A program made the translations under genes and the position numbers. A DNA stretch of 51,962 bases. It comes from Syntrophales bacterium. Lineage in GTDB: Bacteria; Desulfobacterota; Syntrophia; Syntrophales; CG2-30-49-12. The notes under the pieces are model-generated. The model saw nothing but the letters and a program-made list of their open reading frames with translations, was not told the origin of the DNA and searched no databases. Of the stretch, positions 14,581-37,927 are shown one piece after another; the first letter of the stretch is position 1, and the number at the start of each line of letters is the position of its first letter. Location: assembly GCA_030018935.1 (NCBI GenBank), contig JASEGZ010000009.1, positions 1 through 51,962 on the forward strand, given 5' to 3'.

Positions 14581-17500
14581 TTATCCTCTCATTTCTCTAT
14601 GTACCCTTGCCGCCTGCAACAGGAAAACCTCTAATTTCGCTGTGATGATCTGGGGAAAGGGGTTCCCATCGCTCTCAATGGCGAGAAACGGGAGTTCCCG
14701 AACATTTTTTAGAAGATTTCCTGCGTCTCTGCGATGCTTACCCGATGCCGGTGAGCTCCAATCTGCACTCATCTCTCTCGTCAGGATGGCTTCCGATAGA
14801 CGATTGGGCATGCACCCAAAAGGACCAATGGCTATCACCCCGCAGTAAGGATTGAGTATCTCGGTTACGGCGGAACCAATCGTCAGGATGGCTTCACCCA
14901 CTAACTCTGGATTAATCAAATGTCGCACATTACTGATCAGGTGGTCCACCACCTCCATCCTGTAGGGAAGCAGGTTTGACCTGGCCATGATTTTCTTGAA
15001 TGCCCTTTCATAGCTTTTCATCCACCTTGATCTCAGAAAGAGTGACAGCCTTTCCCTGAGGTTGGGCGTGTTACCACCCAGATTTCTCAGATAGCACCAG
15101 TCTGTGTAATAAACCCATTCCATAAGGCTGGAAACCTTTGTGGCCAGACCTTGTTCGGCCAGCTTTTCCACGAGAAACTGTCTCGAAATGTCGTCATGGC
15201 GGACAAATATTTCGCCGGCGACTAAAACAGTGGGGGTGTCCCGCGGATGTCTCTTTACCGGTATCGCCTGCAGATTATCTGCCACGGTGAGAAGAGCCTT
15301 TTTCAGGTCTTTAAAATCTGGCGATCTCTCCAATGCCTCGATGATCCTCCTGCATTCATTCTCGTAAGCGGCAAGAGCCGCCTCCCTGTCCCTCGCATTT
15401 ACGAGGAGTAAGGAATAAATATCCTGCATAATATCGGAGATCACGATGGCAGACCAGAGCTTCAGGGTGAAATCATTGCCGCCAAAACCTGTATAACTGT
15501 TTTCCGCATTAAGGGAAAAGAGGGCAACATCCTCTATCCCTGCCCGGGAAATCAGGTCCCTGATAAAATAGTAGTATTGCCCGAACCGGCAGGGTCCTGA
15601 CGCTCCGGGCATAAAATAGACGAGGAGTTCGTCATCCGTTTCCCTGCTCTGGAGATATTTCAGGAGACTGCCCACAGTCAACAGCAGGGGGAGGCATTCT
15701 TTGCAGCTCGTGTTTCCCCTGCCTAATTTAAGCGCTTCCTCATTAGCGGCCGGGAAGGCGGTGGCGCGGATACCCATGGATCTGAATACAGCGGAGGTCG
15801 TTTTAGTGGTAAGCCTACCCATGGAGGGAAAAACAAGGTGAACATGGGGGTGAGCGAAGGGATACTCCCTGCCTTTTACATCTATGAAGACCTGCTTTCC
15901 GGGATCGAAATATGCCCTCGCCGGCGCGGCAGGAACGGGGGTATAAAGGCTTTTCCTTGATAACTCTCTGTAATTTTTAATGATGTCCATGAAGGCCTCG
16001 ATCCTTGTCTCTAGGCCGGCATCGGCCACGTGAGAATCCAGTTCAAGGATCAGAAAGGGTTTCCTTCCCATAATCGTGCGGAAGTATCCCACGAGGAAGG
16101 AATCTGGACCGCAGGAAAAATTCGTCATGTAGCACCCGAAGAGTTGCGGATGTCTTTCCACGAACCGAGCTCCTTTGAGAATCACCTGTCCTGCCGACCA
16201 GTACATCCCGTCCTCAACCGCTTCCTCACTGAAGGGGAGAAAATCGAAGGGGATCGCCGCCACTCCCCGGGAGGCAAATTTTTGGGGAATCCCCATATTT
16301 GCCTCTGATACGAAGGCGTTGTAGGATCTGCCAAAGATGACAGCAGCATACCGCTCCGGTTCCCTTTCCAGCTCTCTTAAGAACTCAAGCCCCACCTCCT
16401 TCATCTCCTCTGTGACCCTTCTTCGAACCTTCAATGCCTCGGCGAAGGCGTGGTGTGCCTTTTTCCTTCCACATCCCAGCTTTCCCGCCATCACGGTAAA
16501 GACATCCCCTGCCGCCTCATACCCCCTGGAAAAGTCAATGACCGGCTTGAGCACTCTCTTTTTGGAGAGCATTTCTCTGAATGTCTCCTGATCCTTGAAG
16601 GCACTGGTGAGGTAATAGGGTTCACCCTGGAGAAGTGGACAGGTTGTGCTGTGCCTGTAGCCCCTTTCCGCATACATCCCTTTTAATTGGGGGAGAAACA
16701 GGTAATCCGGTTTCCTTTTCAGGAGATGGGAGAGAAAACCATGGGCGATTTCAGCGGGATAACAGAAAGGTGCCCGGGCACGGTCAACCCCCTCCTGCTC
16801 GGATGCCTCCGGGAGCAGTACACGAAAGCCGAGGCGGGAGAAAAAATGGTGGTACAACGGATAGTAGGTGTTCACCAGGAAAGATTTATTAATCCCTATC
16901 GTTTTGGAATGACCCCCTGGCTCTTCCGATGGGGGAACATACTTGCGGAAGATGAGATTCTCACGGTTCCTTACGAGATCGAGTTTTTCCGCATCCACGT
17001 GGATATTGAAGCGCAGGTTGTACCATCTATTACAGGCACCCCCGAAAGGATAGGTCTTTCCCTCTATTCTGATCCTGGCGATCTCACATTTCCGATCGCA
17101 TTTCTTCTTTCCTCCCGGACAGATGAAAGGTTTTTCGTATTCTATGGTCCTGTCCTTTAGCGTTTTGAGGGAAAATTCTCTCTCCTCCACGAGATTGAGT
17201 TGCATCCTGCGTTTTATCTCGAGGGCGACACCAAAGGCGCCCATCAGTCCCGCCTCCGGGGGCACGACGATTCTCTTCCCCGTGAGAGAAGCCATGGCTA
17301 TCGGCACCGCCTGATTGTAACAGACGCCTCCCTGCATGAAGATATTATTCCCCACGGGCCTGTTTCCCTTTACACGGTTGTTGTAGTTCATGCAGATCGA
17401 GTATACCAGGCCCGCGACAATATCCTCTCTTGTCATGCCCTCATGGGAGGCATTCTTTATATCGCTGCTGATAAAGGCGGCGCATTGATCATTGAAGTTG

Positions 17501-18900
17501 GGGGGCTTTCGTCCGCAAATGGCGATGTCTCCGATTGCCTCCATCTCAATTCCCATTGTTTCTTTGGCCGCTTCCTCGAGGAAAGACCCCGTCCCTGCGC
17601 TGCAGGCATCGTTCATGGCGTAGTCCGAAGGCACCCCATTCCTTATATAGGTATATTTTGCATCCTGCCCGCCAATCTCGAAGATAGTGTCCACTTCCCG
17701 GTTAAAAAACAGCGCCCCCGTGGCATGGGCAATAATCTCATTGACGATTCCCTCGGTCATGGCGTGCAATCCCGCTATCTGCCTGCCGGAACCGGTTACC
17801 CCAAGACCAACAATACATATTTTATCTTTCAGGTCGCCGAGCTGGGCATGGAGACTGGCGTAACATTCTCTCGATGCCTGTACAGGATTACCCTTCGTCC
17901 TCAAATACACGGAAGTTAGGATCCTGTCGTCTTCAATCCTCAGCAGGACAGCCTTCGTGGTGGTTGATCCCACATCGAGTCCCAAAATACAGCGGTCACC
18001 CTCCCTTACGACCCCCCTTTCCATGGTCTTGAAATCCACCATGTCTTGAAAATCCTGCAGAGGAGGAAGATAGGAAAAAGACCCCCCTTCCTTTCGGAAA
18101 AGTCTTTCCCGTGGAGGGATGGGTACTGTTTCATGATTCAGGGCCCATATGGCGGCGCCGAGTGCCTCGAAATAAGGCGCCTCTTTCGGCACGGTTAAAT
18201 TTCTGATTTCCCTTTTCAGACAGTCAATCAGAACGGGGTTCTGGGCGGTACCACCGACAATCATAATATTGTTGCGGGGGACATGCTTCATCACCTCCAG
18301 TATCTTGCCGGCCATCATCTCACATAATCCGGCGGCAATCCGTCCCTTCGGCACCCCCTTATTTGTTGCATGCGTACAATCACTCTTGCAGAAAACGCTG
18401 CAGCGCCCGGAAACCTTGTAGGGTTTCTCCTCGCGGGCAAAATGAATCGCCTCCGCAAGGGAGATGCCTATCCTCCGGATCTGCTGCATAAAAAACTCTC
18501 CTGTCCCTGAAGCACATTTGTTGCCCGTCTGAACAGAGCAGATTCTTCCATCCTTCCCCAGGACGTAAACGAGAAATGTTTCCCCTCCGGCGCTTACAAC
18601 GGCATCGAGGTAGTTTCCATCGCTGTTTAGATGTGAAAGGGCAGATTCCACCGCTTCCGCCTCTGGGATAGAGGAAAGATTAAGCGCATGCCTGAACTTT
18701 CTACCCGTGACGGCCACCCGGGAAAAGCTGTCCCCGGGTAAATTTCTGAACACTTCAAGGATGGCCTCTCGTGGGTTCCCGTCATGAGACCCTATTTGTG
18801 TAAATATTGTTTGGATATGACCATCTCTTTCCCTTTCGATTACAACGGCGGACAGGGTTGTGGCGCCTATGCATATCCCGAGACTTTTCACTTCCTTCAC
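14581..18900 (-). CDS. Giant acyl-CoA dehydratase/benzoyl-CoA reductase activase-related protein (BadF/BadG/BcrA/BcrD + DUF2229 + HgdB-like)
   Basis: 1439 aa with several modules. Residues about 5-255 are a first ASKHA ATPase domain (IGATTLSAVV, NKCASGTGEFF) with Cys167, Cys171 and Cys175 as probable cluster ligands. Residues about 305-580 are a second one (ILGLDVGSTTTKAVLL, IGGQDAKY, NDACSAGTGSFLEEA, FMQGGVCYN). A DUF2229 region follows (AFVSEAN, PFCYPAEIAHGFL), then a C-terminal HgdB/benzoyl-CoA-reductase-like part with Cys in KECLPLLLTVGSL and FGCMPNRLSEA. HgdC-type activases use ATP to drive a low-potential electron into a CoA-ester dehydratase or reductase. Giant fused proteins of this architecture occur in many anaerobes, with no settled function known to me. 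A flavodoxin gene directly upstream could be the electron donor. No catalytic dehydratase or reductase subunit is adjacent. Confidence 0.85.
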   Translation of the reverse strand: MKEVKSLGICIGATTLSAVVIERERDGHIQTIFTQIGSHDGNPREAILEVFRNLPGDSFSRVAVTGRKFRHALNLSSIPEAEAVESALSHLNSDGNYLDAVVSAGGETFLVYVLGKDGRICSVQTGNKCASGTGEFFMQQIRRIGISLAEAIHFAREEKPYKVSGRCSVFCKSDCTHATNKGVPKGRIAAGLCEMMAGKILEVMKHVPRNNIMIVGGTAQNPVLIDCLKREIRNLTVPKEAPYFEALGAAIWALNHETVPIPPRERLFRKEGGSFSYLPPLQDFQDMVDFKTMERGVVREGDRCILGLDVGSTTTKAVLLRIEDDRILTSVYLRTKGNPVQASRECYASLHAQLGDLKDKICIVGLGVTGSGRQIAGLHAMTEGIVNEIIAHATGALFFNREVDTIFEIGGQDAKYTYIRNGVPSDYAMNDACSAGTGSFLEEAAKETMGIEMEAIGDIAICGRKPPNFNDQCAAFISSDIKNASHEGMTREDIVAGLVYSICMNYNNRVKGNRPVGNNIFMQGGVCYNQAVPIAMASLTGKRIVVPPEAGLMGAFGVALEIKRRMQLNLVEEREFSLKTLKDRTIEYEKPFICPGGKKKCDRKCEIARIRIEGKTYPFGGACNRWYNLRFNIHVDAEKLDLVRNRENLIFRKYVPPSEEPGGHSKTIGINKSFLVNTYYPLYHHFFSRLGFRVLLPEASEQEGVDRARAPFCYPAEIAHGFLSHLLKRKPDYLFLPQLKGMYAERGYRHSTTCPLLQGEPYYLTSAFKDQETFREMLSKKRVLKPVIDFSRGYEAAGDVFTVMAGKLGCGRKKAHHAFAEALKVRRRVTEEMKEVGLEFLRELEREPERYAAVIFGRSYNAFVSEANMGIPQKFASRGVAAIPFDFLPFSEEAVEDGMYWSAGQVILKGARFVERHPQLFGCYMTNFSCGPDSFLVGYFRTIMGRKPFLILELDSHVADAGLETRIEAFMDIIKNYRELSRKSLYTPVPAAPARAYFDPGKQVFIDVKGREYPFAHPHVHLVFPSMGRLTTKTTSAVFRSMGIRATAFPAANEEALKLGRGNTSCKECLPLLLTVGSLLKYLQSRETDDELLVYFMPGASGPCRFGQYYYFIRDLISRAGIEDVALFSLNAENSYTGFGGNDFTLKLWSAIVISDIMQDIYSLLLVNARDREAALAAYENECRRIIEALERSPDFKDLKKALLTVADNLQAIPVKRHPRDTPTVLVAGEIFVRHDDISRQFLVEKLAEQGLATKVSSLMEWVYYTDWCYLRNLGGNTPNLRERLSLFLRSRWMKSYERAFKKIMARSNLLPYRMEVVDHLISNVRHLINPELVGEAILTIGSAVTEILNPYCGVIAIGPFGCMPNRLSEAILTREMSADWSSPASGKHRRDAGNLLKNVRELPFLAIESDGNPFPQIITAKLEVFLLQAARVHREMRG

Positions 18901-19435: not shown

Positions 19436-19660
19436 GATTTGTATACCTCCCTGGATAAATTTTTTCTCTAAATCTTTGCCCTGAAGATACCCTTCTCTAC
19501 GCTCTTTCTTCAATGAACCTCATAATCGAAAATCATACACAACTTCCGTGTACCTGGCAATCTAATTTTAGGTTGGTGATGCTTCGGATACTTTCGCTGC
19601 ATTTAATCAATCACGGACTTGTACCCTTTATTATCCTTATACAGACAGCCCTTTATTATT

Positions 19661-19759
19661 ATCCTTTGACAAATAGTCTTCCTTTCTGTAATATCTTTTG
19701 GCAAAAGAAGTAAGTTCCTGCTAAGCGTAATGGGTTTGTAAGTATAATAAAGGTAAGCG
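19661..19759 (+). repeat. ~100-bp direct repeat, left copy
   Basis: This stretch repeats at 23458-23558 in the same orientation with about 90% identity; shared blocks include CTTCCTTTCTGTAATATCTT and AGTAAGTTCCTGCTAAGCGT. The two copies bracket a 3.7-kb block. After the left copy comes a variant of a second repeat (GATAGCTGAATGCTT, near 19790-19806) that also follows the right copy near 23680. Apart from this, 19436-19817 holds no recognised gene. Confidence 0.85.
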
Positions 19760-19817
19760 TATCATCCTGTTTCAACTGAAGACTGGAGGGTGATAGCTGA
19801 ATGCTTACAGCGAGGAC

Positions 19818-19979
19818 ATGGGTAAACTTTTGGTTATCAACAAAGCTACTGGTGAACAAAGAGAGCTTCCCTTAAAGGAGTTTCCCATGACCACGAGTGG
19901 CAAGGTGAAAGAGGTAGATTTGAGGAAAAGAGGAAGGAAAATATTTGACCAACCGGAAGAGAAGGGGTCTATTTCTTGA
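19818..19979 (+). pseudogene. C-terminal relic of an AMP-dependent acyl-CoA synthetase
   Basis: A 53-codon frame ends with ELPLKEFPMTTSGKVKEVDL. The TTSGKVKEVDLR part matches the C-terminal motif of acyl-CoA synthetases (TxxGKxxxxxLR, where the Lys is catalytic). Only this tail is left; an intact enzyme has about 500 or more residues. A CGAGG lies upstream of ATG 19818, but translation of the relic is doubtful. It lies between an intergenic repeat and the next gene, inside the block flanked by ~100-bp direct repeats. Confidence 0.55.
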
Positions 19980-20057
19980 GACCATCTTTACACGAATATA
20001 AGCTCCAAAAAACCTTTAATTTGCAATGAAAAGCGACTGTTAAATTAGGAAGTTGTC

Positions 20058-20504
20058 ATGGACTCGTTGAAAGAAGTTGAGGTGAATACTGCGAGGGATG
20101 CACTGGCACTCCTGAGCCGTATGGTTTATAAAAAGTATGGTGATGAGGTTTTGCCTCTTATAGGGGAGGTGTGCTGTAAGTTGGGAAGGGCTATTGGAAA
20201 CCAAATGAGAAAAAATTTGGGTTCCTTTGACCTCAAGAGTGTTGGCAATGCATTTTGGGAAAGTGCCAGACGGCGTAAAAGTCCGGTAACACTACTCGAA
20301 CTCACAGAAAAGAGGATTAGGGTAAAAAGTGAACGGTGCGCATTGGGCTTGGCTGGCGCCGGTCGTCCCATATGTGAGGCTATGATGAATATGGATATAG
20401 GGATCTTTGAAGCGGCTACAGGGGAAGAAATTGATCTCTCTATCTTGAAGACAGTAGCAGCTGGCGACGAATGTTGTGACGTAATATTTACTTTAAAGGG
20501 TTAG
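20058..20504 (+). CDS. Small protein, possibly ATC-hydrolase/V4R-like
   Basis: 148 aa, soluble, with two adjacent Cys near the end (AGDECCDVIFTL). This ending resembles L-2-amino-thiazoline-4-carboxylate hydrolase-like and 4-vinyl-reductase-like small domains, where a GDxCC(E/D) motif closes the protein. The N-terminal helices (ALALLSRMVYKKYGDEVLPL, then GRAIGNQMRK) also fit that type. Function is unknown, and family membership is a guess from a short motif. It is 17 bp upstream of the broken crotonase gene and seems to be in one operon with it and the flavoprotein that follows. AGGAAG precedes the ATG. Confidence 0.5.
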   Translation: MDSLKEVEVNTARDALALLSRMVYKKYGDEVLPLIGEVCCKLGRAIGNQMRKNLGSFDLKSVGNAFWESARRRKSPVTLLELTEKRIRVKSERCALGLAGAGRPICEAMMNMDIGIFEAATGEEIDLSILKTVAAGDECCDVIFTLKG

Positions 20505-20521
20505 TGCCGAGGAGGTGATTT

Positions 20522-21317
20522 ATGTCGTTAGTTATCTATGAGAAGAAGGGTAAGATCGCCCATATTACCCTGAATCGTCCTGAGAAGTTGAACGCCCTGA
20601 ATCCTGAGCTTGTCAGTGAGTTAGCGAAGACCTGGGTGGATTTCAGGGACGATGATGACGTGTGGGTGGGTGTACTCACAGGCGCGGGGAGGGCATTTTG
20701 CGCCGGGGTTGATATCGCATCGGACGTAGAGATGTTGGAGGCGATGAAGGGCAATCCTCCGTCAAGGGTGATCTCTTGGGAGAAAGAGGCGCCTGTTTGG
20801 CGTGCATCTCCTGCACGCTATGATGTCTCGAAACCCATTATTGCGGCCATCAACGGATATTGTCTTGGTGGAGGTTTGTGACTGGCGTTGGATAAGCGAT
20901 ATAAGGATTGCTGTTGAGAGCGCTCAATTTGGGGTACCGGAGCCGAGGTTGGGCATGCCGGCGACCTTTACCGCGCTTCTCCAGCGCTATATCCCCCGAG
21001 GGGTTGCCTATGAAATGCTCCTTACCACTGATAGAATCAGCGTTCAGAGGGCCTACGAGGTGGGGCTGGTGAACCGAATAGTTTCCACTGATAAGCTTCT
21101 CCCTACGGCAACGGAGATGGCGGAGAGGATGTGTCAAAATAGTCCTCTCGCAATAAGGGTAGTAAAAGAGCTGCTTCGGAGAGGCGAGGATATGAGCCGC
21201 CCTGATGCCATGTCTCTAACAGACCATGCAATTCATAGCCTGATGCGCACTGAGGACATAATGGAGGGTTTTAAAGCCTTCGTGGAGAAGAGGTCACCTA
21301 CCTGGAAAGAGAGATAG
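20522..21317 (+). pseudogene. Enoyl-CoA hydratase (crotonase) with in-frame stop and frameshift
   Basis: The first frame (20522-20881) encodes the N-terminal part of a crotonase: IAHITLNRPEKLNALNP, GAGRAFCAGVDI and INGYCLGGGL. It then meets TGA at the place where relatives have Glu (GGGLELAL). The bases after the TGA still read LAL in the same frame. Between about 20890 and 20900 the frame slips by one and the rest of the protein continues: SDIRIAVESAQFGVPE, RAYEVGLVNRIV and the usual end FKAFVEKRSP. Joined, the product would be about 263 aa, a full-length crotonase. Two separate lesions make a real pseudogene more likely than one sequencing error. GAGGAGGTG precedes the ATG. An intact paralogue lies at 22371-23162. 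Confidence 0.8.
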
Positions 21318-21403
21318 CGCTCATTTTTAAACCTAGGGCAGGTCCATGACTTCCCTATCTTATACTCTGTGAAGAGTGAATGTACCATTGAAAAGGAGTT
21401 TTT

Positions 21404-22345
21404 ATGAAAAACAGGATCACCGAGATATTGGGTTCTAAATACCCGATTATCTTAGGGGCGATGCGGTTTATTACCCTTGCTGAAATGGCGGCTGCCATGT
21501 CCAACGCTGGGGGCTTTGGTTTAATTGCTGCTTCAGGAATGGAAGCAGAGCCTTTGAGAAAACAGATTAGGAAAGCCCGTGAATTGACGGACGAACCCAT
21601 CGGCATAAATATCCCCGTATACAGACCCAATGCCTTTGATGCCCTGGAGATAGCTATTGAAGAGGGGATAAAGACAATTACTACCTCTGCCGGGGATGCG
21701 GCCAAACTCATAAAGAGGATTAAAGAGGCAGGGATTAAGGTATTGCACGTGGCCCCTACAGTAGACATGGCGAAGAAGGCAGAGGATGCGGGGGTAGACG
21801 CTGTTATTGCCGTAGGAACGGAAGCAGGCGGACACGTGGGACATGATGAGGTGAGCACATTGGCTCTCATACCACAGGCAGTAGATGCGGTGAAAATACC
21901 GGTCGTTGCAGCAGGGGGTATAGGTGATGCACGGGGTTGGGTAGCGGTGCACGCCTTAGGTGCAGAGGGGATTCAGATGGGGACCCGTTTTCTTGCTACA
22001 AAGGAGTGTCCAATCTCTGATGTGTACAAGCAGGCGATCCTGGCCGCCAAAGATAATAGCACTATGATCGCAGCAAAAAAGGGCTTCCCCCTCAGGACGC
22101 TGAAAAATAAAGGAGTTATGGCTATCCGTGAATTGGAGGAAAGAGGAGCAAGCCAAAAGGAAATCAATGCTTTTGTAGACAAACTCGGCAATGAGTATAG
22201 AGATGATCCGGATAATATGCTCATGGTAGCAGGACAGATAGCTGGATTGATAAGGGAGGTTATGAGCATTGATGAGCTTATTAGACAGATGGTTGAAGAA
22301 GCCAAGGGATTATCTTCAGAGCTGGCTAGAACCTTTTGTTCATAG
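21404..22345 (+). CDS. Nitronate monooxygenase/FabK-like FMN-dependent TIM-barrel protein
   Basis: 313-aa protein of the 2-nitropropane dioxygenase-like family. Visible are the start YPIILGAMRFITLAEMAAA and GGFGLIAASGM, then AVGTEAGGHVGHDEVSTLAL, where the His is typical of the nitronate monooxygenase active site. VVAAGGIGDARG and GIQMGTRFLATKE form the FMN phosphate-binding part. Relatives oxidise alkyl nitronates or, as FabK, reduce enoyl-ACP; many in anaerobes sit beside acyl-CoA genes and may be enoyl-CoA reductases or dehydrogenases. The position between two crotonase genes favours an acyl-CoA role here, but that is inference. GGAG lies upstream of the start. Confidence 0.78.
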   Translation: MKNRITEILGSKYPIILGAMRFITLAEMAAAMSNAGGFGLIAASGMEAEPLRKQIRKARELTDEPIGINIPVYRPNAFDALEIAIEEGIKTITTSAGDAAKLIKRIKEAGIKVLHVAPTVDMAKKAEDAGVDAVIAVGTEAGGHVGHDEVSTLALIPQAVDAVKIPVVAAGGIGDARGWVAVHALGAEGIQMGTRFLATKECPISDVYKQAILAAKDNSTMIAAKKGFPLRTLKNKGVMAIRELEERGASQKEINAFVDKLGNEYRDDPDNMLMVAGQIAGLIREVMSIDELIRQMVEEAKGLSSELARTFCS

Positions 22346-23457: not shown

Positions 23458-23558
23458 ATCCTTGACAAACAGCCTTCCTTTCTGTAATATCTTTCGGCAA
23501 AAGAAGTAAGTTCCTGCTAAGCGTAATAGGCTTGTAAGTATAATATTTAAGGTAAGCG
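23458..23558 (+). repeat. ~100-bp direct repeat, right copy
   Basis: Second copy of the repeat at 19661-19759, same orientation. Both copies, translated, keep LTNSLPFCNIF-x-QKK and then a stop, so the repeat may derive from the end of a small gene. Confidence 0.85.
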
Positions 23559-23563
23559 ATCAG

Positions 23564-23695
23564 CTATCAGCGATCAGTAAGACAGGTCAAAACAAGAACT
23601 TACGTATTTTACAAGCATTCAGCCGTCAGCGATCAGTGCCCCCTGGCATCTTTTTGTTTTAGCTGAAAACTGGAGGCTGATAGCTGAATGCTTGC
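23564..23695 (+). repeat. Composite intergenic repeat upstream of fbp
   Basis: A 44-nt block at 23564-23607 (CTATCAGCGATCAGTAAGAC onward) recurs at 43530-43573 with one mismatch. A second block with CTGAAAACTGGAGGCTGATA and GCTGAATGCTT (about 23660-23694) recurs in part at 19775-19806 and 43638-43672. These are dispersed non-coding repeats ending about 30 bp before the fbp start. Confidence 0.75.
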
Positions 23696-23724
23696 ATAAA
23701 GATTGTTGTAGAGGGATAAAAATT

Positions 23725-24663
23725 ATGGGCGAGGGTATATCGGATTATACAAAATTTACCGTTGACCTGCGGCGGCAAATGTGGCTGGCCGGTGTAGAGG
23801 TAGAACTCCGGAGGCTTATATGGCAAATAGCCGTTACAGGAAAATACATCTCTGCCAAGATCCACGAATCAAACCGGAAACTGGCCGGTTTTAGAAATAT
23901 TTACGGGGAAGAGCAACTGTCCCTCGACAGAAGTGCCGACGAGATCCTCAGAAATCAACTTCAGTTTTCAGGATTTGTCCGGGAGTATAGCTCAGAGGAG
24001 GGTGATGCCGTTATAAAGATCGGCAAGGGTGACGAGAAATATTTCGTCACGGCGGATCCCCTTGATGGTTCTTCTCTCGTGGACAGTAATCTTTCCATCG
24101 GTACCATCATCGGCATTCATAAGGAGTCAATCTTTGCTGAAGGAAAAAAAACAATGGTAGCAGCTATGTATATCACGTATGGTCCCCTGATCACGATGGT
24201 ATATACGGCTGGCAAAGGGACCCATGAGTTTGTTTTAAACAGGGAAGGGGAATATGTCCTCTCTGAGGAAAATATCACCTTGAAGGAACGGGGGTCAATT
24301 TACTCTCTGGGGGGATTGAGGAAGGACTGGACGGCGGAACACCTGAGCTATGTGGAATATCTGGAAGAGGCGGGATACAAACTCCGTTACAGCGGGGGGT
24401 TTGTACCGGACATTAATCAGATTCTGATCAAAAAGGGCGGCATCTTTACCTATCCTGCATTAAAAAAGAGCCCCCGGGGGAAATTACGCCTCCTGTTTGA
24501 GCTTCAACCCGTTGCATTCATCGTTGAACAGGCTGGCGGATTAGCCACCGATGGCAAAGAAGACATCCTGTCCATTAAGGTAGAAGAGTTAAATCAGCGT
24601 TGTCCCATCTATATAGGAAGCCGTTTTGAGGTGGGAAAGGCAAAGGAATTCCTGGCTAAATGA
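23725..24663 (+). CDS. fbp: Fructose-1,6-bisphosphatase class I
   Basis: 312-aa enzyme hydrolysing fructose 1,6-bisphosphate to fructose 6-phosphate, an irreversible gluconeogenic step. The metal site is VTADPLDGSSLVDSNLSIGT. Further family segments are MVAAMYITYGPLITMVYT, YSLGGLRKDW, YSGGFVPDINQILIKKGG and the terminal FIVEQAGGLATDG. The length is close to the usual 320-340 aa. I chose ATG 23725, with AGAGGGA 9 bases upstream; a longer frame begins inside a repeat. It starts a forward run with the glycyl radical enzyme genes (gap 17 bp to the first small subunit) and a class II aldolase after them, so gluconeogenesis and the radical enzyme may be co-expressed. Confidence 0.93.
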   Translation: MGEGISDYTKFTVDLRRQMWLAGVEVELRRLIWQIAVTGKYISAKIHESNRKLAGFRNIYGEEQLSLDRSADEILRNQLQFSGFVREYSSEEGDAVIKIGKGDEKYFVTADPLDGSSLVDSNLSIGTIIGIHKESIFAEGKKTMVAAMYITYGPLITMVYTAGKGTHEFVLNREGEYVLSEENITLKERGSIYSLGGLRKDWTAEHLSYVEYLEEAGYKLRYSGGFVPDINQILIKKGGIFTYPALKKSPRGKLRLLFELQPVAFIVEQAGGLATDGKEDILSIKVEELNQRCPIYIGSRFEVGKAKEFLAK

Positions 24664-24680
24664 AAGGAGGGAATGAGATT

Positions 24681-24902
24681 ATGAGATGTGTTGAGTGCGA
24701 TTATGAGGCACCGGTTAGCAAGTTCCGTTATTTGTACAACGCTCGGGTGGACGATTCCATCAGCATGAGGCAATGTCCCAAGTGTATGGCGTGGCTTGCA
24801 GTTGATGAGTTAATGGGTGAGGCAAAACAGAAGGTAAATCCAGGAGACTCGCCATGGGGCAAGTCAGCTGGAATTGAAGATCTTGGAGCTGAGGTAAAGT
24901 GA
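24681..24902 (+). CDS. Small Fe-S subunit of fumarate-adding glycyl radical enzyme (BssC-position)
   Basis: 73 aa with two CxxC pairs: Cys3/Cys6 in MRCVECDYEAP and another pair in MRQCPKCMAWLAVDEL. Benzylsuccinate synthase and its relatives have two small subunits that each bind a HiPIP-like [4Fe-4S] cluster and are encoded on either side of the large subunit. This gene has that position and Cys pattern. I chose ATG 24681 because the AAAGGAGGG at 24662-24670 is its ribosome-binding site; an earlier ATG at 24660 lies before that site. The gap to the radical enzyme is 163 bp. It might otherwise be a rubredoxin-like or zinc-ribbon protein, but the context favours a subunit. Whether it is the beta- or gamma-type cannot be settled by eye. 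Confidence 0.68.
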   Translation: MRCVECDYEAPVSKFRYLYNARVDDSISMRQCPKCMAWLAVDELMGEAKQKVNPGDSPWGKSAGIEDLGAEVK

Positions 24903-25065
24903 GAAATTTTTCGCATGACCATATTTGAGGATTGTAAGAATTTTCCTCCCTTAAAGAAGACTCTTCAATTCAGAAGAATAACCGATCATACGGAATTGAC
25001 AGCGTAGGGCAATGGTTCAGGCATATTACAGGGGGGATAAACCTTAACCAAAGGAGGGTGATATT

Positions 25066-27558
25066 ATGGAAACGATGGCAAAGGAAAAGGAAATTCAGGA
25101 ATTGGTAGAGAAACGACAGTGGTGGGATGTGGCTGAGAAGGCCCGCTCCAAGAGACTTAACTATTTGAGGAAGGCTGTGTGGAAGAAGGGAGCGCTTGGT
25201 GGGGTATATACACCTGGTCTCAAGATCTGCCTCGACTTCCCCCGGCTCTTCACCGAAGCGTGGAGGGAAAACGAGGACATCCCCATCATACTGAGGAAAG
25301 CCAGAGCATTGGCTAATGTGTGGGAGAATATACCCATATTTATCACTGATCAGGCTCAACTTGTTGGGTACCTCGGTAGCGCTCCCCATACGATGGCATG
25401 GCACTGGCAGGCGGCAAGTATGATTAATGAAGAGATCTATAATGAGACCGGCATCATACCGGAGCCGGAGAAAGAATCGTTAAAGCTTATAGCGGAGTTC
25501 AATGACTATTGGGGAGGTAAGACATCGCTGGATCTTTTCACAAAGGTTGTTGATCCTGAGGATGGGGTCAAGTTTATGAGTGGCGCCATCGGTTGGGGTA
25601 CCCCTTCCTCTGCCGTAACGTATGCCACCAGGGACTTTGGCTTCATATTTAAAGGCTTTGAGGCCATAATTGATCAAATTGATCGAGAGATGGAGAAGGC
25701 CGAGGAGATAACCCATGGCACTCCAAGTCCAGAAATCTTTTCCTACTATGAAAAGTTTCATAAGTGGGAAGCCATGCAGACTGTGCTTAAGGCCGCCATC
25801 GCCTATGCCAGGCGCTACGCACGGCTTGCACGGATTATAGCTGATAACTTTGAGAGTGATCCCAAACGGAGGGAAGAGCTATTGAGAATTGCTGAAACCT
25901 GCGAGCGGGTACCGGCCAAGCCGCCCAGAAACCTGCAGGAATCCATCCAGTTTGATCTTTTCGTGAATATTTTGAACAGGTATGAGGCGGGAGAATTTGC
26001 CTGGCCCTGCCGTCCTGACTATATTCATGGTCCCTTCTATGACAGAGACGTAAAAGACGATAAGCGTTTGACAGAGGATGAAGCCCTCGAATTGATCGGT
26101 GAATTCATGATCAGGGCGTATGAGATTGGTATGTTTGCGCCCAGGTGGACCAGGGAAGGGCTTCAGGGTATCGTTGGTACCTGGGTATGGACCATTGGTG
26201 GAGTTGACGAAGATGGCAATGATGCCTGCAACGATATGACCGTTGCGCTAATGAAGGCGGCAAGGTTCGTGCGCGTGGCAAATCCGACCTTTTCCTTCAG
26301 GTGGCATCCCAGAGTGAAGGATGAGGTATTCAGAGAGGTATTCGAGTGCATCAGGCATGGTCTTGGGTATCCGAACGTACGTAACGATCCTGTCCTGATC
26401 GCCAATGGGATGTACTGGCATGGGCATCCATTAAAGGAAATGAGGACGTGGGTAAATCAGGCCTGCATGTCACCATGTCCCACTACAAAATACGGCTGTC
26501 AGCCTTTCCGTATGGCCTCCTGCACAGCCAATACTGCCAAAATGGTCGAGTATGCCTTGAGCAATGGCTATGATCGGGTGGTCAATATGCAAATGGGACC
26601 CAAGACTGGTGATGCCAGGAAGTTTAAGGACTTTGAGGAATTATTTGCCGCCTGGGTCAAGCAGATGGAATGGATAATGAACATTCTTATACGTACCGTG
26701 GCCCTTGGTCGGGTCAAAGACCCCGAATTCTACTCAAGACCCATGCTATCCGCCTGCTATGAACGTGCGGTTGAGACGGGGACGGACGCTGTTGATCCCT
26801 CTAATGGGGAGCGGGGGAATACATGGATTACCTGGTTCACCTGGGTGGAGAACGTGGATAGCCTTGCAGCCGTTAAGAAGTTAGTTTTTGATGAAAAGAA
26901 GTACACTATGGAAGAGTTGATAACTGCCCTCGAGGCCAACTGGGACGGCGATGAAGAAATGCGGCTTGACTTCGTGAGAAATGCGCCCAAGTGGGGTAAC
27001 GACGATGATTACGTGGATAGCATCATGGTTCGCTGCTTAAAGGAGATTGCACGTCACTCTTGGGAGATAAAGGGTCCGGAGGGGAAACCGTTTCCAGCTC
27101 TACCGGAGAACGTGAGTGGCAACATCCACTATGCCAATATCGTTGGTGCTCTGCCCAACGGCCGCAGACTGGGCGACGCTCTTTATGACGGTGGTGTCTC
27201 TCCTGGGCCAGGTCTTGACAGAAAAGGACCAACTGCGGTTTTAAAGTCCGTAGGCAAGATTGATCACATAACTCAAGGCCGTGCCTTCCTGCTGAACCAG
27301 CGGCTTTCCCCGATCCAGCTTGCCGGTGATAAAGGCTACCACCTCTGGAGATCATACATGAAGACATGGGCTGACCTGGGGAATGACCATGTACAGTTCA
27401 ACATGGTAGACGATTCAACCCTGAGAGCTGCTCAGAAAGATCCCGAGAAGTACTCCGAGGTAATTGTCCGGGTTGCCGGTTACAGCGCGCACTTTGTGGA
27501 CATCAGCCGTAAGACCCAGGACAATATTATCCAGAGGACCGTTCAGGGATTAGGCTAA
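25066..27558 (+). CDS. Glycyl radical enzyme, fumarate-adding (benzylsuccinate/alkylsuccinate synthase-like) catalytic subunit
   Basis: 830-aa PFL-like glycyl radical enzyme. The C-terminal radical motif is RVAGYSAHF with Gly805. The active-site Cys is probably Cys467 in NQACMSPCPTTKYG (C-x-x-P pattern). The 338-residue spacing between the two is close to that of benzylsuccinate synthase (Cys493/Gly829 in Thauera). The ACMSPCPTTK segment and MASCTANTAKMVEYALSNG point to the X-succinate synthase branch, which adds an alkyl or aryl-methyl C-H across fumarate. Two small Cys proteins flank it as in bss and ass operons. The true hydrocarbon substrate (toluene, cresol, methylnaphthalene, alkane or other) cannot be read from the sequence. 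No activase gene is visible in the window. AAAGGAGGGTGA precedes the start. PFL, glycerol dehydratase or choline lyase are excluded by the active-site segment. Confidence 0.85.
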   Translation: METMAKEKEIQELVEKRQWWDVAEKARSKRLNYLRKAVWKKGALGGVYTPGLKICLDFPRLFTEAWRENEDIPIILRKARALANVWENIPIFITDQAQLVGYLGSAPHTMAWHWQAASMINEEIYNETGIIPEPEKESLKLIAEFNDYWGGKTSLDLFTKVVDPEDGVKFMSGAIGWGTPSSAVTYATRDFGFIFKGFEAIIDQIDREMEKAEEITHGTPSPEIFSYYEKFHKWEAMQTVLKAAIAYARRYARLARIIADNFESDPKRREELLRIAETCERVPAKPPRNLQESIQFDLFVNILNRYEAGEFAWPCRPDYIHGPFYDRDVKDDKRLTEDEALELIGEFMIRAYEIGMFAPRWTREGLQGIVGTWVWTIGGVDEDGNDACNDMTVALMKAARFVRVANPTFSFRWHPRVKDEVFREVFECIRHGLGYPNVRNDPVLIANGMYWHGHPLKEMRTWVNQACMSPCPTTKYGCQPFRMASCTANTAKMVEYALSNGYDRVVNMQMGPKTGDARKFKDFEELFAAWVKQMEWIMNILIRTVALGRVKDPEFYSRPMLSACYERAVETGTDAVDPSNGERGNTWITWFTWVENVDSLAAVKKLVFDEKKYTMEELITALEANWDGDEEMRLDFVRNAPKWGNDDDYVDSIMVRCLKEIARHSWEIKGPEGKPFPALPENVSGNIHYANIVGALPNGRRLGDALYDGGVSPGPGLDRKGPTAVLKSVGKIDHITQGRAFLLNQRLSPIQLAGDKGYHLWRSYMKTWADLGNDHVQFNMVDDSTLRAAQKDPEKYSEVIVRVAGYSAHFVDISRKTQDNIIQRTVQGLG

Positions 27559-27596
27559 TTTTGACTACGAACAGCTTAAAACAGGGAGGAAAGGAA

Positions 27597-27971
27597 ATGG
27601 TGCGATCGCGAAGAGAGGAATGGGAACAGATGCGAAAGAGTATGACCAGTCAGTTCTCTACGGCTAAAGGCGTAGAAGGTCGAGAAACCGTACCCGATAA
27701 GGCCTGTGGGAAGTGTAAGAACTTTTCCGAAAACGCCTATGCATCCGATGGAAGGGGATCTTGCGGGGTCTTGAAGATGGGGAGTAACTTCCTTGTAGAC
27801 CCGCCCATTTTTGTTCTGGAGGGGGAAGCAGGGCTGATGTGCATGTTCAATATAGATGCCAGCCGATGTAAATATTATGAGATGATGGAATTCATTGATA
27901 CCGATGGCACAGAGTGTGCCGACCCGCAGTTCCGCCGTGCCCAGAGGCAAATGGAAAAGACCCTGAAATAG
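27597..27971 (+). CDS. Small Fe-S subunit of fumarate-adding glycyl radical enzyme (BssB-position)
   Basis: 124 aa. Cys residues are in DKACGKCKNFSENAY, GRGSCGVLKMGS, LMCMFNI and ASRCKYYEMM, enough for a [4Fe-4S] cluster as in the HiPIP-like small subunits of benzylsuccinate synthase. A later Cys is in DTDGTECADP. The basic N-terminus (RSRREEWEQMRKSM) and the C-terminal tail (FRRAQRQMEKTL) make it longer than the 60-80 aa Thauera subunits. I chose ATG 27597, which follows a GGGAGGAAAGGA; an upstream TTG frame is not needed. It lies 38 bp after the radical enzyme stop. A stable complex with the catalytic subunit is expected from the family, not shown here. Confidence 0.7.
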   Translation: MVRSRREEWEQMRKSMTSQFSTAKGVEGRETVPDKACGKCKNFSENAYASDGRGSCGVLKMGSNFLVDPPIFVLEGEAGLMCMFNIDASRCKYYEMMEFIDTDGTECADPQFRRAQRQMEKTLK

Positions 27972-28084
27972 TGCAGGAGGTTGGGGGGATCCCCCCGGTC
28001 TTCGGGATCTCCCCAACTTCGAGCGTGTGAAGTGCTTCCGGGAGGAAGCTCAGGCCGCTACATAGCTCTAAAGGGGTGAGTTCT

Positions 28085-29479
28085 ATGATTTATGAAAATA
28101 TGGATCAGTTGAAAAAAGGTCTGGAGGGGATACTGGAGGTTGCCGGCGATGATGTCATGGTACTTGATGAGGAGAGGTTCCGGTGTTCTCTCATTGATGC
28201 TCTGATCTATTCCGCCGTCTTCAGTCCCTGTCAAGAAACGAGGGAAGCTGCCCGATGGCTGATCAGGCGGGCCGGGGCGTCCCTTGGGGTTGTTTCTGCG
28301 TCTATCCAGTCTCTCTATGAGGCGATGGGTCGCAAGGAGGTGTCTGGTTTTACGGTACCGGCCATCAACATCCGTGGTCTCACCTATGAAGTTGCCCAGG
28401 CCGTTATTCGTGCCGCCATAAAGAACCGTGTGGGGCCCGTGATCTTTGAGATCGCCCGGTCGGAGATCGGTTATACCCTCCAGCGTCCGGCGGAATACAC
28501 CAGTGCAGTGACGGCTGCGGCCATCAAATGCGGGTACTGTGGTTCTCTGTTTATGCAGGGGGACCATTTCCAGGTAAGTGCAAAAAAATTCCTCAAAGAC
28601 CCGGCAGCAGAGGTTCAGGCAGTCAAAGATCTGATCTGGGAAGCTATAGAAGGCGGATTTTATAATATTGATATTGATACCTCAACACTGGTGGATCTGA
28701 CGAAACCCACGGTGGCCGAACAACAGAAGATGAATTATACCCTGGCGGCAGAGTTGACGACCATGATCCGGGATCTGGAACCTGCCGGTGTGACAATTTC
28801 TGTGGGCGGTGAGATCGGTGAAGTAGGGGGGGAAAACAGCACTGTCGAGGAGTTGCGGGCCTTTATGGATGGTTATCTCGAAGAACTGAAAAAAAACGGC
28901 GAAGATCTGAGGGGCATCAGTAAGATCAGCGTCCAGACTGGTACCACGCATGGCGGCGTTCCTCTACCAGATGGCAGTATCGCTAAAGTGAAGATTGATT
29001 TTGCTACCCTTGAAGAGCTATCCGAGGTTGCGAGGACAGAATATGGCCTTGCCGGTGCTGTTCAACATGGGGCCTCCACCCTCCCCGATGAGGCCTTTGA
29101 TAAATTCCCCGCGATCAAAACGGCGGAGATCCATCTGGCGACGGGCTTTCAAAATATCATTTACGACAGTCAGAACTTTCCTGCCGGGCTCAGGGATAAG
29201 ATTTACCACTATCTAAAAACGGAACTCATCAGCGAGCGGAAAGAGGGCGATACAGAGGAACAGTTTATTTATAAGACCCGAAAGAAGGGGTTTGGTCCCT
29301 TCAAAAGAGAACTATGGCATTTTCCCTCGGATACGTTGCATGCCCTCGGTAAGGAACTGGAAGATAAGCTTTCCTTCCTGTTCCATAAATTGAATGTCGG
29401 CGATACGGAAGAGCTGGTCAAGAGATTTGTGAAGCCGGTGGTTGTTCCCTTAAAAGTCCCTCCGGCCCTGAAAGGATAG
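28085..29479 (+). CDS. Class II fructose-/tagatose-bisphosphate aldolase family protein
   Basis: 464-aa zinc-dependent class II aldolase-like protein. The first part shows VPAINIRGLTYEVAQAVI. A zinc-ligand segment is MQGDHFQVSAKK; other typical parts are NIDIDTSTLVDL, SVGGEIGEVGGENST, GTTHGGVPLPDG, VQHGASTLPDE and EIHLATGFQNI. It is longer than the usual 285-360 aa because of an N-terminal extension (about 75 aa) and a C-terminal helical extension, as in a long FbaA-like subgroup. With fbp upstream it would supply gluconeogenesis. I chose ATG 28085, with AAGGGG upstream. It is 113 bp after the small subunit and separated by a G/C-rich possible hairpin. Its TAG stop adjoins two heptamer units. 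Confidence 0.8.
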   Translation: MIYENMDQLKKGLEGILEVAGDDVMVLDEERFRCSLIDALIYSAVFSPCQETREAARWLIRRAGASLGVVSASIQSLYEAMGRKEVSGFTVPAINIRGLTYEVAQAVIRAAIKNRVGPVIFEIARSEIGYTLQRPAEYTSAVTAAAIKCGYCGSLFMQGDHFQVSAKKFLKDPAAEVQAVKDLIWEAIEGGFYNIDIDTSTLVDLTKPTVAEQQKMNYTLAAELTTMIRDLEPAGVTISVGGEIGEVGGENSTVEELRAFMDGYLEELKKNGEDLRGISKISVQTGTTHGGVPLPDGSIAKVKIDFATLEELSEVARTEYGLAGAVQHGASTLPDEAFDKFPAIKTAEIHLATGFQNIIYDSQNFPAGLRDKIYHYLKTELISERKEGDTEEQFIYKTRKKGFGPFKRELWHFPSDTLHALGKELEDKLSFLFHKLNVGDTEELVKRFVKPVVVPLKVPPALKG

Positions 29480-34463: not shown

Positions 34464-35792
34464 ATGTTGAACGTACTTTTGATCGGCAATGGCGCCCGGG
34501 AACACGCCATCGCTGAGGCCCTTGCCCGGTCGAGCCGGCAACCGAAACTTTTCTCTTACATGAAATCCAACAACCCCGGCATTGCCTCACTTTCAGAAAA
34601 GGTTACCATTGGCAGCTACAGTGAACTTCCGGCAATCAGTGAATTTGCGAGGGCATGTCATATTCATTTTGCCGTGATCGGTCCCGAAGAACCACTTAAC
34701 AATGGAGTGGCCGATGCCCTGAGAGAGGTGGGGATTCCGTCCATGGGCCCCTCAAAGAACCTGGCGCGTCTCGAGACTTCAAAGTCCTTCACGAGGCGTT
34801 TATTCGAAAAATACCGGATCCCGGGAAATCCAGGATTTAAGACATTTTCCTCTCTGAATGGCATTAGGGAGTTTCTCGACGAACTGGACGGTATTGTCAT
34901 CAAGCCCGATGGACTGACCGGTGGCAAGGGGGTCATGGTGCAGGGAGATCACTTTCAGACCAGGGAAGAAGCGATGGACTGCTGCCGGACCATCCTGAAG
35001 GAATATGGGAATGTGATTATTGAAGAGAGGATGGAGGGGGAAGAATTCTCCCTTCAGTGCCTCTGTGACGGCAAAACCGTCGTGGCAACACCCCCTGTCC
35101 AGGACCATAAGAGACGATTTGCCGGCGATAGAGGCCCGAACACGGGGGGGATGGGTTCATATTCCTGTGAAGACCATACCCTGCCTTTTTTGCGTCCTGA
35201 GGACATCGCGGAAGGTCTTAACATTACGCGGCAGGTGGCCGATGCTATATATAGAGAGACGGGAGAATACTACAAAGGGATCATGTACGGTGGATTCATG
35301 GTTACAAGGTCTGACGTCAAGTTACTTGAATATAACGCCCGCTTCGGTGATCCCGAGGCGATGAATGTCCTCCCTCTCTTAAAAACAGATTTTATTGATC
35401 TGTGCAAGGCCATCATTGATGGCGCTCTCGACAGGATGAATGTGGAATTTGAGAGAAAGGCAACTGTTTGCAAATATATTGTTCCGAAAGGATACGGCCT
35501 CCCCGGTGAGCATCCCGATTCTGTATCTTTATCGTCAAAAATTGAGGTTGGCGATGTGGGCGCCGCACGGCTGTACTATTCTTCTGTTGACAGGAGGGAA
35601 GACGGTTTGTATATGACCACCTCGAGAGCAATCGGTGTGGTGGGCATAGCCGATCACCTCGGTGAGGCGGAAAAAATTGCGGAAAGCGCCGTGGCGGCCA
35701 TCAGGGGGCCCGTGGACCACAGATCCGACATCGGCACAGAAGAGTTAGTCAAAAAGAGAATCCAGCATATGCAAGAAATCAGGGGGCGATAG
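34464..35792 (+). CDS. purD: Phosphoribosylamine-glycine ligase (GAR synthetase)
   Basis: 442-aa ATP-grasp ligase joining phosphoribosylamine and glycine, second step of purine synthesis. Visible are the start NVLLIGNGAREHAIAEAL, the ATP-grasp lid VIKPDGLTGGKGVMVQGD, EERMEGEEFSLQCL, the glycine/phosphate segment GDRGPNTGGMGSYS, and the metal-binding LEYNARFGDPEAMNVLPLL. The length is close to the usual ~425-430. It heads a forward purine run with purH (41 bp gap) and purE. The gap upstream (34405-34463) holds no clear promoter. Confidence 0.93.
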   Translation: MLNVLLIGNGAREHAIAEALARSSRQPKLFSYMKSNNPGIASLSEKVTIGSYSELPAISEFARACHIHFAVIGPEEPLNNGVADALREVGIPSMGPSKNLARLETSKSFTRRLFEKYRIPGNPGFKTFSSLNGIREFLDELDGIVIKPDGLTGGKGVMVQGDHFQTREEAMDCCRTILKEYGNVIIEERMEGEEFSLQCLCDGKTVVATPPVQDHKRRFAGDRGPNTGGMGSYSCEDHTLPFLRPEDIAEGLNITRQVADAIYRETGEYYKGIMYGGFMVTRSDVKLLEYNARFGDPEAMNVLPLLKTDFIDLCKAIIDGALDRMNVEFERKATVCKYIVPKGYGLPGEHPDSVSLSSKIEVGDVGAARLYYSSVDRREDGLYMTTSRAIGVVGIADHLGEAEKIAESAVAAIRGPVDHRSDIGTEELVKKRIQHMQEIRGR

Positions 35793-35833
35793 AAAAAGCT
35801 TCCTGTTTACCTGAAATAACTCAACAGGAGATT

Positions 35834-37399
35834 ATGGCAATGAACGAAATCAGGCGGGCGCTGATCAGTGTTACAGACAAGAGAGGGATTGTAGAGTTTG
35901 CCAGGGAGCTTTCGCAATTTCCTGTGGAGATCCTCTCCACGGGGGGAACGGCTTCCAAGCTGAGAAGCGAGGGAATAAAAGTCACGGATGTCTCTGATTA
36001 TACCGGTTTCCCCGAAATGATGGACGGCAGGTTAAAAACACTTCATCCGAAGATACACGGTGGTCTTCTGGCCCTGCGGAATGATGGAGGGCACATGAGA
36101 GCCCTTAAAGAACAGGGGATAGGTCTGATTGACATGGTGGTGGTCAATCTCTACCGCTTCGAGGATACCGTGGCAGAAGGCTGCACTCTCCGGGAGGCCG
36201 TGGAAAATATAGATATTGGTGGGCCGACCATGCTCCGGGCCGCGGCGAAAAACTACCGCTTTGTCAGTGTCGTGACCGATCCCGAGGATTACCCGAAAAT
36301 ATTAAAAGAGATGAGGGGAACGGGGGGAAAGATCACGGAGGACACCAACTTTGCCCTGGCGGTAAAGACATTTCAACTGACGGCAAAATACGATGCCGCC
36401 ATTTCCAACTATCTTGGCAGGATAGTTCCCGAGGGGGGAATGAAGGTATTTCCCGATACCTTCACCTTCCAGTTTGTTAAGGCGCAGGACCTCCGCTACG
36501 GGGAAAATCCCCATCAGAAGGCCGCCTTCTACAGGGAGATGGGACCCCCTCTTTCCGCCATATCCAATGCACGGCAGCGCCAGGGAAAGGAATTATCCTA
36601 CAACAACATCATGGACAGCGATGCGGCCTGGCAGATGGTATCCGACTTTGAACTGCCCGCCGCGGTGATTGTCAAGCACGCCAACCCCTGCGGTGCGGCG
36701 ACCTCCGCTTCCGACATTTCAGAGGCCTATCGGAAAGCACGGGAGACAGACCCCGTATCCGCCTTCGGAGGGATTGTCGCCTTCAACCGTCCGGTGAACA
36801 GGAAAACGGCGGAAGCAATAACAGAGACCTTTATCGAGGTTATCATCGCCCCGGCGTTTGACGGGGATGCCATCGCGATATTAGGCGGAAAAAAGGATAT
36901 GAGGGTCCTGGAGATCCCACCGGCTTGCGGGAAACAGCCTGCCGGTTATGACTTCAGGAGAGTTGCGGGGGGGCTCCTCATCCAGGACAGAGACTGCGAG
37001 GAGTTCGATATCAGAAAGGCAAAGGTTGTGACCAGGAGGGCGCCAACGGCAGAGGAGTACCAGGCCCTCGATTTTGCCTGGCGGGTGGTGAAACACGTTA
37101 AATCAAACGCCATTGTCTTTGCCGCGAGAGACCAACTGGTCGGCGTGGGGGCAGGACAGATGAGCCGGATGGATTCGGTAAGGATCGCCGGTATGAAAGC
37201 AAATCTGCCGACGAAAGGATGCGTTCTTGCCTCGGATGCCTTCTTTCCCTTTCGTGACGGCATTGACATTGCCGCCGAAGCCGGTATTACAGCCGTCGTA
37301 CAACCCGGCGAATCAATCAGGGATAAAGATGTGATTGCCGCCGCCGATGAACACGGGATGGCGATGATCTTCACCGGAACAAGGCACTTCAAACACTAA
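35834..37399 (+). CDS. purH: Bifunctional AICAR transformylase/IMP cyclohydrolase
   Basis: 521 aa, performing the last two steps to IMP. The N-terminal IMP cyclohydrolase domain (about 1-150) shows ALISVTDKRGIVEFA, ILSTGGTASKL and LKTLHPKIHGGLLA. The AICAR transformylase domain has RYGENPHQKAAFY, the catalytic region VIVKHANPCGAAT and SAFGGIVAFN, and the end GMAMIFTGTRHFKH. Full length. AACAGGAGATT precedes the ATG. It lies between purD and purE, as one transcript. Confidence 0.95.
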   Translation: MAMNEIRRALISVTDKRGIVEFARELSQFPVEILSTGGTASKLRSEGIKVTDVSDYTGFPEMMDGRLKTLHPKIHGGLLALRNDGGHMRALKEQGIGLIDMVVVNLYRFEDTVAEGCTLREAVENIDIGGPTMLRAAAKNYRFVSVVTDPEDYPKILKEMRGTGGKITEDTNFALAVKTFQLTAKYDAAISNYLGRIVPEGGMKVFPDTFTFQFVKAQDLRYGENPHQKAAFYREMGPPLSAISNARQRQGKELSYNNIMDSDAAWQMVSDFELPAAVIVKHANPCGAATSASDISEAYRKARETDPVSAFGGIVAFNRPVNRKTAEAITETFIEVIIAPAFDGDAIAILGGKKDMRVLEIPPACGKQPAGYDFRRVAGGLLIQDRDCEEFDIRKAKVVTRRAPTAEEYQALDFAWRVVKHVKSNAIVFAARDQLVGVGAGQMSRMDSVRIAGMKANLPTKGCVLASDAFFPFRDGIDIAAEAGITAVVQPGESIRDKDVIAAADEHGMAMIFTGTRHFKH

Positions 37400-37414
37400 T
37401 GGGAGATGATCAAT

Positions 37415-37927
37415 ATGGAAGAAAAAACAGCGGTCTCCGTCAGTGTCGTCATGGGGAGCGACTCTGACCTCCCTGTCATGCAAGAGACCATTCGGATACT
37501 CGATACCTTCGGCATCCCTTACGAGGTTTTTTTGACGTCGGCCCATCGTTCGCCGGAGAGGACCTCATCCTTTGCCCGAACAGCGGCGCAAAGGGGCATC
37601 AGGGTCATCATCGTCGGGGCCGGAGCGGCAGCCCATCTCGCCGGGGTAATCGCTTCCCAGACCATCCTGCCGGTCATCGGTGTCCCTCTCGAGGCCACGT
37701 CGCTCATGGGGCTGGACGCCCTTCTCTCCACCGTGCAGATGCCTGGCGGGATACCGGTTGCCACGATGGCCGTCGGAAAGGCAGGGGCAAAAAATGCGGC
37801 CCTGCTGGCCGTCAGGATCATGGCCCTGGAGGATGGGGACCTGCGCGAAAAGTTGCAGGCCTATATACAGGACATGGCACGGGAGGTCGAAAAAAGACAA
37901 GAAGATATTTCATGCCAGAAATCCTGA
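37415..37927 (+). CDS. purE: N5-carboxyaminoimidazole ribonucleotide mutase (class I PurE)
   Basis: 170-aa enzyme moving the carboxyl group of N5-CAIR to make CAIR in purine synthesis. The signature is VVMGSDSDLPVMQET near the start, then SAHRSPERTSSFA with the catalytic His, and GAGAAAHLAGVIASQT. I chose ATG 37415, 9 bases after GGGAG; the upstream ATG at 37406 starts inside that spacer. purK is not adjacent. The end overlaps the next gene by 16 bp, which indicates coupled translation. Confidence 0.93.
   Translation: MEEKTAVSVSVVMGSDSDLPVMQETIRILDTFGIPYEVFLTSAHRSPERTSSFARTAAQRGIRVIIVGAGAAAHLAGVIASQTILPVIGVPLEATSLMGLDALLSTVQMPGGIPVATMAVGKAGAKNAALLAVRIMALEDGDLREKLQAYIQDMAREVEKRQEDISCQKS

Follow-up and report, generated by a model that had tools for sequence, protein, structure and literature searches.

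Alkane-type (1-methylalkyl)succinate synthase genes with a gamma relic and an unlinked activase, between the fructose-1,6-bisphosphatase and aldolase genes of a Syntrophales bacterium

The best-described pathway by which alkanes are broken down anaerobically, including during methanogenic oil degradation, starts with alkylsuccinate synthases. We asked which enzyme is encoded by a gene for an 830-aa glycyl radical enzyme (GRE) flanked by genes for two small Cys proteins (73 and 124 aa), and how this enzyme could be activated when no activase gene is apparent nearby. The window, i.e. the whole stretch of DNA that was analyzed, is the entire contig JASEGZ010000009.1 (C9; positions 1 to 51,962) of the Syntrophales bacterium assembly GCA_030018935.1, a genome of 2.07 Mb that is 96% complete and comprises 90 contigs. 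The initial annotation had described the three genes correctly with respect to their coordinates and the radical residue Gly805 of the large protein, and had read them as being in the C-A-B order of benzylsuccinate synthase (BSS) and alkylsuccinate synthase, with an open substrate and an activase that is either encoded elsewhere or belongs to another system.

Identity of the alpha, beta, and delta subunits

The 830-aa protein (25066..27558, forward strand, as are all features of the locus) matched the Pfam models PFL-like (425 bits) and Gly_radical (97 bits). Its match to MasD, the catalytic (alpha) subunit of the (1-methylalkyl)succinate synthase (MASS) MasBCDE of Azoarcus strain HxN1, an enzyme of C6-C8 n-alkanes (PDB 9o8u, chain A; PMC12358834), ran end to end at 1326 bits and 67.6% identity, compared with 494 bits and 37.2% identity to the BSS protein TutD. 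In alignments with TutD and MasD, Cys467 and Gly805 fall on the catalytic Cys and the radical Gly of both proteins. Further, all of the MASS residues to which the structure paper assigned roles in catalysis and fumarate binding (PMC12358834) are kept, namely W177, Y186, C467, R482, T589, E681, and G805, where W177, Y186, R482, and T589 correspond to MASS W185, Y194, R492, and T598. At the fumarate-contact positions, the protein resembles MASS, with Thr for BSS Asn615 and Glu (E681) for BSS Gln707. In a maximum-likelihood tree of 27 sequences with a GRE outgroup, the window alpha subunit grouped with MasD and Syntrophales alpha subunits, apart from TutD, with a support of 99/100, although TutD is the single BSS-branch reference in this tree and the program flagged TutD and the outgroup as long-branched; a search of plasmids for named BssA, NmsA, or IbsA references returned only other GREs at ∼30% identity. 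The protein therefore lies inside the fumarate-adding clade, as proposed initially, and on the MasD side of it. Because all of the MASS active-site residues that we checked are kept, the substrate is expected to be a saturated hydrocarbon and probably an n-alkane. The sister of the window protein in the tree is the copy of a genus-mate (G001), followed by a copy on a short contig of a Candidatus Omnitrophota metagenome-assembled genome (JAMOOT010000020.1; 4.2 kb), which is 81% identical to the window protein and has an intact gamma gene upstream; its presence there reflects either horizontal transfer or a mis-binned contig.

The small proteins were compared with chains of known structure. The 73-aa protein (24681..24902), which is rubredoxin-like with two CX2C pairs, matched MasE, the delta subunit (9o8u_D; E = 3.9e-24 over residues 1–69), and the 124-aa protein (27597..27971) matched MasB, the beta subunit (9o8u_B; E = 9.1e-35). 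The beta reading frame opens at a TTG at 27561, but homologues favor the ATG at 27597 as the start. No BSS chain was among the matches of either protein, and MasB and MasE have no sequence similarity to any BSS subunit (PMC12358834). We conclude, from these matches, that the set is the delta-alpha-beta of an alkane-type MASS/alkylsuccinate synthase and that the BssC-A-B reading has to be given up, the 73-aa protein being MasE (delta) and not BssC (gamma). A benzylsuccinate-type enzyme with BssC and BssB and an aromatic hydrocarbon substrate would share the superfamily and the chemistry, and the placing of a large subunit between small Cys proteins invites this reading. Like the BSS of Thauera aromatica (TutD/BssA; PDB 4pkc and 5bwe), the window enzyme is a fumarate-adding GRE that requires a radical-SAM activase. 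However, the small proteins have no sequence counterpart in that enzyme, and the alpha tree and the fumarate-contact residues described above also speak against it, so that we give this reading next to no credence.

A gamma relic inside a relocated gene set

The gap of 163 bases between the delta and alpha genes holds the relic of a MasC-type gamma gene (24914..25039), which has lost its first Cys codon, is decayed in the middle, and has shifted frame. What remains is MTIFEDCKNFPP, which aligns to the gamma start, and, in another frame, VQAYYRGDKP, which resembles RQAYYKAKP of gamma. At the DNA level, the relic matched the gamma gene of the genus-mate with a score of 47, compared with a maximum of 33 in 2000 dinucleotide shuffles, and the Omnitrophota gamma gene with a score of 41; the relic site is also the best-scoring place for gamma in the whole window. 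In the loci of 13 relatives, an intact gamma gene of 54–60 aa lies upstream of alpha, usually immediately, and its product matches MasC (E = 1.5e-13). Elsewhere in the source genome, a gamma profile detected no intact gene, but just a gene start of 12 codons where contig C66 breaks off, i.e. at an assembly edge. Because the genus-mate has a complete gamma gene at the homologous place, a working gamma is probably encoded elsewhere in the genome and cut by the assembly gap. An 86-aa Cys protein on contig C15 (P0008) was considered as the missing gamma and rejected: it matches neither MasC nor any BSS subunit, and its homologue precedes a different type of alpha in G001. We note that gamma-like relics also occur directly upstream of alpha, at the same spot as in the window, in another lineage (L078, contig C6 of G034; L079, contig C1 of G030), where an intact gamma gene precedes beta.

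The mas genes lie between those for a class 1 fructose-1,6-bisphosphatase (FBPase; 23725..24663; Pfam FBPase and FBPase_C) and a class II fructose-bisphosphate-aldolase-like protein (28076..29479; Pfam F_bP_aldolase, E = 3.4e-15), which form the host operon. Genes of these two kinds are adjacent (on one strand with a gap of <400 bp; median, 34 bp) in 105 of the 109 Syntrophales pairs found on the same contig; the gap is 51 bp in G113 and 3418 bp in the window. The region homologous to the mas genes of the genus-mate spans 24656 to 27983, with its left edge at the FBPase stop codon. Because the pair is interrupted here, the delta-(gamma relic)-alpha-beta set is probably a relocated cassette (24656..27983) that moved into it. 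The ends of the cassette showed no target-site duplication, and promoter and terminator scans gave nothing above shuffles. In the genus-mate, the same mas genes have other neighbors, delta lies beside an insertion sequence, and no gamma relic is left; at the end of its contig C216 (L123:15035-15578), the insertion-sequence-like element beside delta starts directly downstream of the ribosome-binding site that in other loci leads into alpha. Separately, a dispersed imperfect inverted repeat of ∼150 bases lies just upstream of the FBPase gene (23547-23700) and recurs in the source genome at 43519-43670 and 19768-19809 of the window, L039:9615-9777, and L042:12838-12895.

The dN/dS values between the window and genus-mate genes (0.07–0.17 for alpha, 0.21 for beta, and 0.16 for delta) indicate that all three genes are under purifying selection. 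A frameshift suspected in the genus-mate alpha gene from split tblastn pieces is actually a run of N. The dS of delta (0.73) is far above that of alpha (0.19–0.24) and FBPase (0.41), and the cassette may thus be a mosaic in which delta and alpha-beta behave as if they had different histories.

An activase candidate on another contig

The initial annotation had found no activase in the 52-kb window, and this was confirmed: none of the 41 matches that a six-frame search of the genome with the Radical_SAM model produced lies on C9, and tblastn of the window with both activases of contig C15 gave no match, which together rule out a hidden activase there. In line with the initial proposal of an activase elsewhere, an enzyme of the matching type (P0006; 320 aa) is encoded on C15 (36587-37546), with a CX3CX2C motif and two ferredoxin-type clusters. 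P0006 is 56–60% identical to the activases encoded directly beside MasD in seven relatives and grouped with MasD-linked activases in an activase tree (99/99), apart from the activases of other GREs. It passes the general GRE-activase model TIGR02494 (336 bits; cut-off, 174) and scores below the curated cut-off of the BssD equivalog TIGR04003 (273 bits; cut-off, 496). Among 155 Syntrophales genomes, a MasD-type alpha was present in 12, a P0006-type activase in 12, and both in 10 (hypergeometric p = 2.6e-12, a value that ignores the kinship of the genomes). One of the two activase-only genomes contains alpha in fragments, and the alpha-only genomes are G029 (71% complete) and the genus-mate G001, whose assembly (92% complete, 220 contigs) contains the enzyme and no P0006-type activase. 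Further, G030 and G034 have a gamma-beta-alpha-delta locus without a linked activase and encode the activase elsewhere in the genome; linkage of the activase to the mas locus is thus usual but not required. Based on the phylogeny and the co-occurrence with MasD, the window enzyme is most likely activated in trans by P0006, and the activase gene apparently lies on another contig because the gene set moved into an unrelated sugar-metabolism operon.

Contig C15 has further genes of this kind. At 19630-22086 (L006, P0005), it encodes a divergent alpha of the fumarate-adding type, 50% identical to the window alpha and 47% to MasD, in which Trp185 is replaced by Pro. The contig also encodes two activases in tandem, an 81-aa delta-like protein, and MoxR/VWA proteins, together with the 86-aa Cys protein, which belongs to no known family; P0006–P0009 are encoded at 35648-38106 (L039). 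The same activase pair follows a delta-like gene on contig C56 of G113.

Alternative readings, proposed mechanism, and relation to known systems

The enzyme could be real and served by another activase, either the 308-aa P0007, whose gene directly adjoins that of P0006, or an activase encoded next to the GREs of contig C4; all of these are glycyl-radical-enzyme activases. However, only P0006 grouped with the MasD-linked activases, whereas P0007 grouped with a G113 protein outside that group and the C4 proteins grouped with activases of other GREs, and across the Syntrophales only the P0006 type tracks MasD; we regard this possibility as unlikely. A little less probable again, in our judgment, is that the window holds a decaying, nonfunctional copy, with gamma already lost, the activase unlinked, and the other three subunits bound to decay in turn, and that the working enzyme is a 78%-identical alpha on C15. 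The relic and the other alpha genes of the genome are compatible with such decay, but none of alpha, beta, and delta is disrupted, no catalytic residue is missing, their dN/dS values (0.07–0.21 overall) are low, and the genus-mate, too, keeps these three genes with no gamma between them. The arrangement of FBPase, cassette, and aldolase could also be a chimera of the metagenome assembly, in which case the enzyme would still be an alkylsuccinate synthase: mas genes are multi-copy, several contigs of the source genome and of G001 end at mas genes, and the neighbors of the cassette differ in G001. Yet the cassette lies well inside the 52-kb contig, the identity of no more than 78% between its alpha and the nearest copy shows that it is not a collapsed repeat, and FBPase and aldolase sit on different contigs in G001 as well, which makes a chimera quite improbable.

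We thus favor, as the likely joint reading, the alpha, beta, and delta subunits of a MASS encoded in a relocated cassette with a decayed gamma, with P0006 acting in trans and gamma provided from another mas locus. Some observations weigh against it, namely that P0007 adjoins P0006, that further alpha subunits in the genome may be served by P0006, that G001 lacks a P0006-type activase in its fragmented assembly, that no more than 12 codons of an intact gamma are visible, where a contig ends, and that the tree has one BSS-branch reference. By homology to the published MASS model for the HxN1 enzyme, from which the roles of delta and beta are also taken (PMC12358834), the radical-SAM activase, most likely P0006, would generate a glycyl radical on Gly805, which would give rise to a thiyl radical on Cys467; the latter would abstract a hydrogen from the alkane, and the resulting alkyl radical would join fumarate held by Arg482 and Glu681. 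Delta would sit on the glycyl-radical domain, occupying the position at which the activase has to dock, and beta would gate the entry of substrate to the active site. Gamma would most likely be supplied from another mas locus, a gamma gene starting at the end of C66. The gamma of the cassette itself presumably decayed, and the cassette, which had no activase gene with it, presumably came to lie at the 3′ end of the FBPase gene by relocation. More tentatively, and with somewhat less than even odds, one activase and one gamma may serve several fumarate-adding enzymes in trans in this genus, with alpha-beta-delta as a cassette that moves without them; if so, transfer of the substrate-determining part alone could broaden the range of hydrocarbons that are attacked.

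The window thus contains a known kind of alkylsuccinate synthase, and what is unusual is the relocated gene set, the broken gamma, the unlinked activase, and the site inside a gluconeogenic gene pair, a combination of which a limited search of the open-access literature returned no description. The locus shares with MasBCDE of HxN1 the MasE and MasB homologues, a closely similar full-length alpha, and the catalytic and fumarate-binding residues that we checked, but differs in its delta-alpha-beta order, in having MasC as a relic and no MasG-type activase in the cluster, and in its position between FBPase and aldolase. Smithella loci comprise assA with assB, assC, and masE homologues (PMC4208337), and an alkylsuccinate synthase is known from “Ca. 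Smithella cisternae” of the Syntrophales (PMC5606693). These and other Syntrophales loci have the same subunits and belong to the same bacterial order, and in G030 and G034 they also lack a linked activase; in contrast to the window, they keep an intact gamma, and most have the activase directly upstream. Several alkylsuccinate synthase clusters in one genome are known from Desulfoglaeba alkanexedens (PMC7180275). Surveys often infer function from a complete operon, whereas here an alkane-type enzyme is under selection without gamma and activase in cis, and the analysis names a candidate for its activase. The gamma-less locus also offers a natural test of the role of gamma, which the 2025 structure paper left open beyond a likely function in solubility (PMC12358834).

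Elsewhere in the window, an enoyl-CoA hydratase gene is split into two frames (20522-21317; 119 and 171 aa) and is followed by a nitronate-monooxygenase-like gene and then an intact enoyl-CoA hydratase gene. On the reverse strand, 14581-18900 encodes a 1439-aa fused BadF/BcrA-type acyl-CoA dehydratase activase with a DUF2229 domain, beside a flavodoxin-like gene.
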